Origin: a virus
Reading direction: 5' to 3' (one strand)
IMG/VR virus record: IMGVR_UViG_3300050132_000094
Coordinates: 1 to 37,144 of that record
Length of the DNA: 37,144 nt
Part shown: positions 1 through 3,297 of the stretch, piece by piece
How positions within the stretch are numbered: the stretch's first letter is position 1
How the letters are laid out: each line of letters opens with the position of its first letter
The notes under the pieces: model-generated
Databases searched by the model: none
What the model was told of the DNA's origin: nothing
Seen by the model: only the letters and a program-made list of their open reading frames with translations
Made by a program: the position numbers and the translations under genes

Positions 1-166
1 GGTTGGCGCCGCGCAGGTTGGCGCCGCGCAGGTTGGCGCCGCGCAGGTTGGCGTCGCTCAGGTTGGCGTCGCTCAAATCCGCACGCTCGCCGCCATCTTC
101 GCCAAGGCACCAGGCTTTATGTTTGCCGAGGATTTCGGCGAGTTGTTCGGTAGTGAAGGTTTTCAT
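1..166 (-). CDS. Pentapeptide-repeat protein, C-terminus off the window
   Basis: Leftward gene starting at ATG 166 and still open at base 1, so only the first 55 codons are present. The start follows a GGAG 6 nt upstream. After an N-terminal stretch beginning MKTFTTEQLAEILGKHKAWC, the chain becomes tandem five-residue units of the form A-N-L-R/S-G/D, the A(D/N)LXX pattern of pentapeptide-repeat proteins, which fold as right-handed quadrilateral beta helices. The DNA shows this as 15-bp repeats at 2-75. Members of this fold include gyrase-protecting DNA mimics such as Qnr and MfpA, but many have unknown roles; nothing seen here decides the function. It lies downstream of PL and so should be an early leftward gene. 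The fold is clear; the function is not assigned. Confidence 0.8.
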   Translation of the reverse strand, partial: MKTFTTEQLAEILGKHKAWCLGEDGGERADLSDANLSDANLRGANLRGANLRGAN

Positions 167-1228: not shown

Positions 1229-1705
1229 TTATTTAGCTGGAGCTGGCGGCGGCGGTGCCGCTTCTGCCTTCCCTGCCTGATAAGCAGAAATAGTGGTGCC
1301 GATTGCGCTAAGCGTGTTGGCCTGGGTTGCAAAGTAGGCGCCAACAAGAATCGCTGCTACCGCAAGCAGCTGAACACCTACGGCTGCCCAGTAGTTTGAT
1401 TTGACAGTAGCTGCCGACTCTGCAGCTTTCGTGGCCCTTACTGCGATATCTTCAATCCGCTTGTCGCGCTCCACTTGATTATCCATGAAGGATCTAACTC
1501 GATCATCAAGGCCTTTCATGCGCTCGTCAGTCAGCTCTCTCTGCGCAGCCATATCCCGACGAAGCTGTTCGTCTCGAAGCTGGAGTTCGTGGCGGTAGTC
1601 GGTGATATCTGTCATAGGCTGAATATTAGGCTCATTGATCTGTGAGTCAACCTTGAGAAATTGACTAGTGTTTTCCTTGGTAATGACTACTGGCGCAAAA
1701 CTCAC
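1229..1705 (-). CDS. Coiled-coil single-pass membrane protein, rexB position
   Basis: A 158-residue protein in three parts. A polar N-terminus of about 35 residues comes first. A charged heptad-like coiled coil follows, about 38-100 (RDEQLRRDMAAQRELTDERM...). One hydrophobic segment, about 106-126 (WAAVGVQLLAVAAILVGAYF), precedes a short Ala/Pro-rich tail. It overlaps the upstream zinc-ribbon gene by 4 nt (ATGA), so translation is coupled; Met31 is a possible shorter start. It is the last gene of the cI operon. Lambda expresses its exclusion genes rexA/rexB from the same place and rexB is a membrane protein, but I see no sequence similarity to RexB. Superinfection exclusion is an inference from position and topology. 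Confidence 0.7.
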   Translation of the reverse strand: MSFAPVVITKENTSQFLKVDSQINEPNIQPMTDITDYRHELQLRDEQLRRDMAAQRELTDERMKGLDDRVRSFMDNQVERDKRIEDIAVRATKAAESAATVKSNYWAAVGVQLLAVAAILVGAYFATQANTLSAIGTTISAYQAGKAEAAPPPPAPAK

Positions 1706-1998
1706 TGGGAAGCCTCAGGGGTTTCGGGGTTGTGTTCAATCCAGTTTTTCACGACGCTCGCTTTGTGTGATCTAAGATAGCCACAGGCATTACAGTCAAG
1801 ATTTAATTTGTACCATGGTGCATCGCCAGAAAAGCTCGCGACCGGCTCAAGAAGGCAGTACGCTCCATCACCGCTATATATTTTGATATTCCACAGGTTC
1901 GTTTTGCACATTGGGCACTCGCCATCCTTGGTGAGCGCATTCAGAAATCGAATAGCATCCGCATAGGGAAGAATTCTCGCATCTTCAGGGTTAAACAT
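1702..1998 (-). CDS. Zinc-ribbon protein, rexA position
   Basis: A 98-residue protein starting at ATG 1998 behind TAAGGTG. Two CxxC pairs (Cys28/Cys31 in CPMC and Cys69/Cys72 in CNAC), about 38 residues apart, form a probable zinc ribbon, with an extra Cys48. The rest is short alpha/beta sequence with no motif I recognise. It is separated from the upstream repressor gene by about 118 bp without a promoter I can identify, so it is probably read from the repressor promoter in the lysogen. It is coupled to the downstream membrane-protein gene. The soluble-plus-membrane pair behind cI mirrors lambda rexA-rexB in layout only. Function unknown. Confidence 0.7.
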   Translation of the reverse strand: MFNPEDARILPYADAIRFLNALTKDGECPMCKTNLWNIKIYSGDGAYCLLEPVASFSGDAPWYKLNLDCNACGYLRSHKASVVKNWIEHNPETPEASQ

Positions 1999-2998: not shown

Positions 2999-2999
2999 C

Positions 3000-3012
3000 G
3001 CGGAAATGTATA
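3000..3012 (-). promoter_or_regulatory. PRM-like repressor promoter, apparently leaderless mRNA
   Basis: On the minus strand TATACA (3012-3007) is followed by 8 nt and then the repressor ATG at 2998, so transcription would start within about 2 nt of the start codon. The 17-bp-upstream position has no good -35 but overlaps the operator at 3033-3046. This is the arrangement of lambda PRM, a weak promoter activated by CI that makes a leaderless message. There is no Shine-Dalgarno before ATG 2998. Confidence 0.5.
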
Positions 3013-3071
3013 CCAATGGTTAAAAATAAGAAGAAACCATCGGTATTGATTAAAACTTAACAGATGGTTAA
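3010..3071. promoter_or_regulatory. OR: three CI/Cro operators
   Basis: Relative to ATACCGATGGTTAA, copies lie at 3010-3023 (1 mismatch), 3033-3046 (inverse orientation, two terminal mismatches) and 3058-3071 (3 mismatches). The first covers the PRM -10, the middle one lies between the promoters next to the PR -35, and the third covers the PR -10 region. Three unequal sites between divergent cI and cro follow the lambda OR plan. Confidence 0.75.
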
Positions 3072-3102: not shown

Positions 3103-3297
3103 ATGAACGCGACTTCCCTCGACAAGTTCGTGGCTGACAAAGGGCAGTCCGAAGCCGCACGGCTTCTTCGGGTTACTGCTCCAGCCATTCACAAAGCCTT
3201 ATCGGCAAAACGGGACATTCAAGTGCTTGAGCTTCCAGATGGCAGCTTTCAAGCAAAAGAGCAGCGTCCATTTCCGTCGCAAAGATCAGCCGCTTAA
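3103..3297 (+). CDS. cro: Cro repressor
   Basis: A 64-residue protein, almost the size of lambda Cro (66). It shares the Cro outline: 'L-DKF...GQ-SEAARLL-V...AIHKAL' helix-turn-helix at about residues 12-38, a short beta hairpin with 'PDGSFQAKE', and the 'PFPS' tail before a basic end. ATG 3103 is preferred because AGAGG (3091-3095) is 7 nt away; ATG 3097 is only 1 nt from it. An earlier in-frame ATG at 3064 lies upstream of the predicted transcript start. As the first gene from PR it should bind the same operators as CI, turn down cI and commit to the lytic route. Confidence 0.9.
   Translation: MNATSLDKFVADKGQSEAARLLRVTAPAIHKALSAKRDIQVLELPDGSFQAKEQRPFPSQRSAA

Follow-up and report, generated by a model that had tools for sequence, protein, structure and literature searches.

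The stretch of DNA analysed here, hereafter called the window, is a viral IMG/VR record of 37,144 nucleotides (IMGVR_UViG_3300050132_000094) whose tail sheath, tape measure and baseplate genes mark it as a contractile-tailed phage or prophage. It contains a lambda-like switch with a cI-type repressor gene on the minus strand (2117-2998; HTH_3 and Peptidase_S24 domains with Pfam E-values of 1.1e-5 and 1.3e-17, respectively, and a PHROG transcriptional repressor match at 2.6e-32) and a divergent Cro gene on the plus strand (3109-3297; PF09048). The cI gene is presumed to be the first of a lysogenic operon. Behind it, and on the same strand, follow gene A (1702-1998), which encodes a zinc-ribbon protein of 98 aa, and gene B (1229-1705), whose long form of 158 aa starts with GTG. 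This start codon overlaps the stop codon of A by 4 nt (GTGA, 1702-1705) and is preceded by a TGAGG Shine-Dalgarno sequence about 8 nt upstream, while B ends at an intrinsic terminator hairpin on the minus strand (1202-1226; folding energy -15.7 kcal/mol, z -3.3) that runs into a U-tract. Further on, a convergent DUF1654 gene on the plus strand (813-1127; Pfam PF07867, 3.1e-24) forms the far edge of what the slot analysis presented below identifies as a cargo slot. All gene calls are mechanical.

Two further observations concern the surroundings of this operon. The lambda cI mRNA made from pRM is reported to be (near-)leaderless, and the cI gene of the window, with a TATACAT sequence about 7 nt before its ATG (2999-3030), may be near-leaderless too. 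At the left edge of the window (1-77), a short tandem DNA repeat, ggttggcgccgcgca, looks like a pentapeptide-repeat gene cut off by the end of the window.

The product of gene A carries two cysteine pairs, C28-x2-C31 (CPMC) and C69-x2-C72 (CNAC), and all four cysteines are invariant across 15 aligned partners, i.e. the small proteins encoded in front of B. Its AF2 model (pLDDT 83) has a beta core with helices at the N- and C-terminal ends, such that A combines the two conserved CxxC knuckles with the beta strands of a zinc ribbon. Relatives of A give weak zinc-ribbon matches in Pfam, and A itself has a weak match, at its C-terminal part, to a PHROG without assigned function. Matches of A to FmdB, YnfU and TFIIB-like ribbons were weak and judged to be generic ribbon matches. 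Foldseek searches with the model returned one weak viral match and no fold match in the PDB at an E-value of 0.001 or better. Since an IMG/VR pattern scan with A alone confirmed nothing and the alignment of the A family is too divergent for such scans, relatives were collected via the B loci and by a whole-genome HMM search, the latter of which placed them in 28 of 399 Pseudomonas genomes.

Gene B consists of two parts of different character. The N-terminal tail of 30 aa (1616-1705, minus strand) is variable and predicted to be disordered (AF2 pLDDT about 40 for residues 1-30), while the remaining 128 aa (1229-1615, minus strand) constitute a core, delimited by alignments, that is composed of a coiled coil and one transmembrane (TM) helix and corresponds to a predicted short form of the protein. 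The TM helix (about residues 106-126, positions 1328-1390; mean Kyte-Doolittle value of 2.14 over 19 aa; TM class T1) is the only hydrophobic segment of B. In the AF2 model, one long helix extends from residue 33; with an overall pLDDT of 62 (low confidence), this model was relied upon only for the disorder of the tail and for the helix. Among aligned B proteins, unrelated tails of about 30-130 aa are followed by the conserved core, which opens at a methionine; of the 61 HMM matches, 60 have this residue where the variable part meets the conserved one. In the window, this conserved methionine is the second predicted start (ATG 1613-1615). The tails themselves are under purifying selection, with omega values of 0.09-0.23 in the four pairs permitting an estimate, which argues that the long form is translated. 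Judging from these sequences, both a long and a short product of B are probably made.

Several database matches of B were set aside. Those to WXG100_2, synaptobrevin, SLATT_1 and DrmD (Pfam, NCBIfam and PADLOC) were weak and judged to be generic coiled-coil matches, and those to VAMP/SNARE entries of the PDB reflect only the combination of a coil and a TM helix. A separate observation concerns two relatives (L018:5767-6408, within the B tail, and L006:4725-5408), whose variable tails contain DLDYLDVPKFLRRQ and DAEYLEIPAFLRRQ. Both sequences are near the C-terminal peptide of Pseudomonas FtsZ; using the native sequences as queries, the best PDB match was 2vaw, with E-values of 0.011 and 0.03. 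Mimicry of a division-protein docking peptide is possible in these cases. The motif is absent from the B protein of the window and from most other tails.

Neither A nor B matches a curated family in Pfam, PHROGs, NCBIfam or PADLOC beyond generic coiled-coil and zinc-ribbon noise. PADLOC 2.0 gave no match for either protein of the window, and its few matches among their relatives, all with E-values above 0.005, were weak and spurious. Similarly, tblastn searches with A and B of the window against INPHARED phages, as well as with the B core of a relative (L010) against INPHARED and PLSDB plasmids, found nothing. Relatives of B were found in IMG/VR and in named Pseudomonas genomes, and every relative with a named host belongs to Pseudomonas. 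An HMM search of 399 Pseudomonas species genomes detected B-type proteins in 45, a count that pools prophage copies with chromosomal orthologues. The collections contain related sequences, with deduplication by sequence identity only. Taken together, these data confirm the description given by the initial annotation, which had noted two coupled genes on the cI strand ending at a strong terminator, one encoding a small soluble protein of zinc-binding type (binding being predicted) and the other a coiled-coil single-pass membrane protein, and had recognised neither family.

Not all copies of B share the same genomic context. The chromosomal orthologues (L041-L066, L069-L091; e.g. L071:5911-6396) occur without a partner in fluorescens-type genomes, recurrently with a LysR-type regulator on one side and a pirin-type gene on the other (names read from the sequences), and display a weaker version of the promoter described in the next paragraph; their existence without partner or prophage suggests a housekeeping origin. 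Other copies reside in late or tail operons (L009:4713-5672 / L033:5638-6597; L006/L007/L025/L026), with the L009/L033 copy located directly before a 1547-aa tape-measure gene.

Inside gene B lies a feature that, along with the second predicted start at ATG 1615, was overlooked by the initial annotation. On the minus strand at 1622-1650, a consensus scan and family conservation point to an embedded sigma-70 promoter, composed of TTGACT (1650-1645), a 17-nt spacer and AATATT (1627-1622), in a register that places the predicted +1 on the A of this ATG. The majority of family copies have such a promoter within the gene. In 26 repressor-linked copies, which were picked without the promoter as a criterion, the consensus TTGACA-N17-TATAAT is matched at a mean of 8.81 out of 12 positions in one exact register, the -10 element occupying positions -12 to -7 relative to the ATG, compared with 1.8-3.8 matches of 12 in 30 other registers. 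The information content amounts to about 0.8-1.9 bits at 10 of the 12 hexamer positions and to 0.07 bits in the surrounding coding DNA; as the 17-nt spacer and the flanks are near background as well, conservation is restricted to the -35 and -10 hexamers. Amino acid constraint alone as the cause of this pattern is ruled out by wobble usage: given the encoded residues, the wobble bases at four hexamer positions deviate from the usage of those genes (P-values of 2.5e-7 to 1.3e-13). The pattern also extends to held-out loci found via A, whose B-like proteins carry other TM domains. There, seven of eight copies with an M-D-I-T type core score at least 8, a value reached by 21 of 3206 in-frame ATGs overall (held-out copies included).

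With a -10 element 6 nt upstream of the AUG and no Shine-Dalgarno sequence, the arrangement has the sequence features of a leaderless gene, and this promoter geometry suggests that the short form of B is translated from a leaderless mRNA. The tail-operon copies in L006 and L009 lack the promoter, yet they carry AAAGGAG-N6-ATG at the same methionine, which points to a second way of preserving the internal start. The promoter pattern was additionally encountered in front of a different short gene (MNEEFEEILKDIQ...) in IMG/VR contigs (L150-L262), with the same 6-nt gap to the ATG, suggesting that this gene, too, is leaderless and that it is common among other phages.

In prophage copies, the repressor is usually followed, in some cases after one or two small genes, by the small partner and then by B. 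In the 23 loci examined, a B start codon overlaps the stop codon of the partner, abuts it or is at most 15 nt away from it. This cI-partner-B layout is present in 22 other loci of a first collection and in 40 other loci of a second one, which was gathered by another method and overlaps the first. It is not a product of chance, and similar pairs behind other cI genes, for which the initial annotation had proposed a search, do exist. Scanning the loci for an embedded promoter together with a single-TM product yielded 50 distinct genes; partners could be identified for 41 of these, 32 being zinc-ribbon proteins and nine being other proteins that look helical by sequence.

Comparison of these 41 loci revealed that tail similarity follows partner similarity (Mantel r 0.605, p 0.0002), as is also the case in the first set of 23 loci (Mantel r 0.67, p 0.0002), the two sets being overlapping. 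Tail similarity does not track the core, and the similarity of TM modules is uncorrelated with that of both partners (-0.04) and tails (0.035). Single linkage separates 15 partner classes and seven TM classes, with zinc class P1 being paired with all seven TM classes and P2 with four. The window itself combines P1 with T1, and its most similar-looking tail and partner are found in L158, the TM module of which belongs to class T4. The covariation of partner and tail, combined with the independence of the TM module, argues that the partner and the tail form a single cassette that recombination exchanges relative to the TM core. The border of this exchange sits at the embedded promoter. Because linkage alone would couple neighbouring sequences, the covariation is no proof of contact, and binding between A and the tail is something that we infer. 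As a side observation, zinc-ribbon partners also precede another type of TM protein (PPGxDPMEARVAKLE...; L136:3432-3752 region, L265, L273, L316), which is encoded without an embedded promoter.

In Pseudomonas prophages, the interval between cI and DUF1654 (1128-2116 in the window; loci L264-L343) serves as a slot for variable cargo. Using the convergent DUF1654 gene to fetch 80 loci, a repressor was found within 4.5 kb in 76 of them, and the cargo of the slot comprises 69 clusters of proteins of at least 100 aa. A PADLOC scan of 68 cargo clusters at an E-value of 1e-6 matched 86 models, although several models can match one protein and the scan covered slot proteins alone, meaning that these are match counts rather than a measure of enrichment. 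The matches include strong ones to known or candidate defence families, among them HEC-04 (7.6e-220), 'beta' (1.1e-161), PDC-M32A/B (to 9.4e-159), NsnB (1.2e-19), AriA/AbiLi, PDC-M07A, PDC-M24B and a type IV restriction enzyme, and HSDR_N, GHKL ATPase, HipA-like and IrrE-like domains are among those of ten hand-picked cargo proteins. B genes with an embedded promoter are a minority occupant, being present in four of 56 distinct repressor-bearing intervals; another four of the 56 contain A with a different TM protein. With regard to the candidate exclusion module proposed by the initial annotation, the slot, the pairing, the lack of a described family and the defence-like neighbourhood all hold up. 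Not supported in its original form is the idea of one particular, fixed pair of zinc-ribbon and coiled-coil proteins: zinc ribbons are one partner family among several, and the TM module is exchangeable.

Several known systems bear a partial resemblance to A-B. In lambda, the pLIT promoter drives rexB separately. RexABpp (PP_5643-5644) of the Pseudomonas putida prophage P1 occupies the matching slot, likewise behind a CI-like repressor, and its RexB is a growth-suppressing membrane effector triggered by RexA (PMC12894663). Like lambda RexA/RexB and RexABpp, A-B comprises two genes behind a CI-type repressor, one for a soluble and one for an inner-membrane protein, consistent with the initial comparison to the rexAB position and to its soluble/membrane pairing with unlike sequences. 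However, RexBpp is predicted to span the membrane with four TM helices and RexApp is a DNA-binding protein of the RexA kind, whereas A is a zinc ribbon of 98 aa and B a coiled coil with a single TM helix; moreover, an embedded leaderless-type promoter and cassette exchange are traits of A-B that do not appear for RexABpp in the available part of that account (PMC12894663). Membership in, or homology to, RexAB is ruled out by TM number and fold, and no RexA chain was returned when solved structures were searched by profile with A and B.

A long membrane protein with an in-frame short product is also made from the prophage exclusion gene sieB of P22 and lambda, the short product, Esc, having an opposing role and arising by translation control rather than from a leaderless promoter. 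We know of no soluble partner of SieB. B would resemble this system in its predicted shorter in-frame product, for which the conserved internal methionine is combined with either the embedded promoter or, in tail-operon copies, a Shine-Dalgarno sequence, and differs from it in the putative leaderless promoter of the short form and in having a soluble partner. In superinfected cells, P22 SieB stops macromolecular synthesis (PMC10883804). No match to the SieB family was present among the Pfam matches up to an E-value of 1 for any B protein scanned. A further dual-start gene is that of the lambda holin and antiholin, S105/S107. It shares with B the principle of one membrane gene with two starts, the longer form being possibly regulatory, and B is distinguished by its location in the cI operon, by its soluble partner and by a 90-nt distance between the starts, within which a promoter lies. 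In the Csp231I restriction-modification operon, which is controlled by a C protein, the regulator transcript is leaderless and extra promoters uncouple the effector from the regulator (PMC4824078). Such operons are two-component conflict operons with a leaderless transcript for one gene, both being features proposed for A-B, but their proteins are unrelated and the leaderless gene is that of the regulator. Finally, the Fc02 exclusion genes olg1/olg2 were set apart on the basis of their described, different arrangement (PMC9936078).

The cassette structure, the embedded promoter and the location among defence cargo make exclusion or defence the best reading of A-B, for which the pair is a good candidate on sequence grounds. 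Covariation of partner and tail alongside an independent TM module is a design typical of conflict systems. In the model that we favour, while rating its probability as slightly below even, A and B would form an exclusion module of the abortive-infection type that is carried as cargo of a prophage cI operon: A and the tail of B would gate a membrane effector, with the tail-less short form setting the stoichiometry. The zinc ribbon and the disordered tail would serve as a swappable cassette for recognition or gating, and the coiled-coil, single-TM core as an inner-membrane effector that can likewise be swapped. Lysogens would produce A and the long form of B from the cI-operon transcript, their translation being coupled; the short form, an anchor devoid of the docking tail, would come from a leaderless mRNA initiated at the promoter inside B. 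The proportion of subunits with and without the tail in a membrane oligomer would then determine a threshold. If a superinfecting phage disturbs A or its contact with the tail, the membrane effector would be released and would stop growth or DNA entry. Against this exclusion reading speak that A and B lack a curated family match and PADLOC is empty for both, that B has one TM helix as opposed to the four of RexBpp, and that chromosomal orthologues of B exist without partner or prophage.

Other explanations fit parts of these data. The long and short forms with their exchangeable partner, the dedicated promoter of the short form and the occurrence of toxin-antitoxin-like genes (IrrE-like peptidase, HipA-like kinase) among the cargo of the same interval would all agree with an addiction system, in which a toxic short form, made constitutively from the embedded promoter, is restrained by A and the long form until loss of the cI operon unleashes B. 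We consider such a system unlikely, albeit not far-fetched; the short form would be lost along with the prophage unless it were very stable, and both the tail-operon copies (L006, L009) and the chromosomal copies do without the partner. Rather unlikely, too, is that B serves lysogeny or host physiology as a membrane-tethered regulator of repressor stability, the envelope or cell division and has no role in defence. The two family members with tails resembling the FtsZ C-terminal peptide, the orthologues outside prophages and the location in the cI operon speak for such an accessory role, yet the FtsZ-like motif is missing from most tails, including that of the window, and combinatorial diversity within a defence-cargo slot would be unusual for housekeeping regulation.

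Superinfection exclusion at the stage of entry, as exerted by SieA or HK97 gp15-like proteins, would require only that B in the inner membrane blocks DNA injection, with A tuning this activity. B being a single inner-membrane protein, the SieA precedent (PMC10883804) and the copies in tail operons, one of them before the tape-measure gene of L009/L033 in the usual position of a moron, are in line with this scenario; nevertheless, seven unrelated, interchangeable TM classes fit poorly with a specific block at the injection channel, and the coupling to a soluble partner is conserved, leaving an entry block by B alone quite improbable. The hexamers might also be no promoter at all, but a recombination border that promotes cassette exchange. 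Exchange does take place at this very border, but the confinement of conservation to the -35 and -10 hexamers, with a near-background spacer and flanks, and the Shine-Dalgarno sequence at the same methionine of promoterless copies render this explanation highly improbable.

Returning to the exclusion reading, a broader proposal, which we put forward tentatively and with less confidence than the model for the window itself, is that A-B exemplifies a combinatorial class of exclusion systems in Pseudomonas prophages. Here, many recognition cassettes, each consisting of a partner and its matching disordered tail, would be joined by recombination to a number of unrelated cassettes for membrane effectors, and the border between them would at the same time be the promoter from which a leaderless mRNA for the tail-less effector is made. 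Every lysogen would then possess a partner-gated long form and a short form of the same membrane protein, resulting in strain-specific phage exclusion.

A-B is a concrete candidate for an unnamed exclusion system, and the slot between cI and DUF1654 in which it resides can be mined for further systems in Pseudomonas prophages. If true, the placement of an embedded promoter of the leaderless type at the border of a cassette would represent an unusual route to two forms of one protein encoded by a swappable gene, and it would explain how prophages may exchange recognition parts while a working effector is kept.
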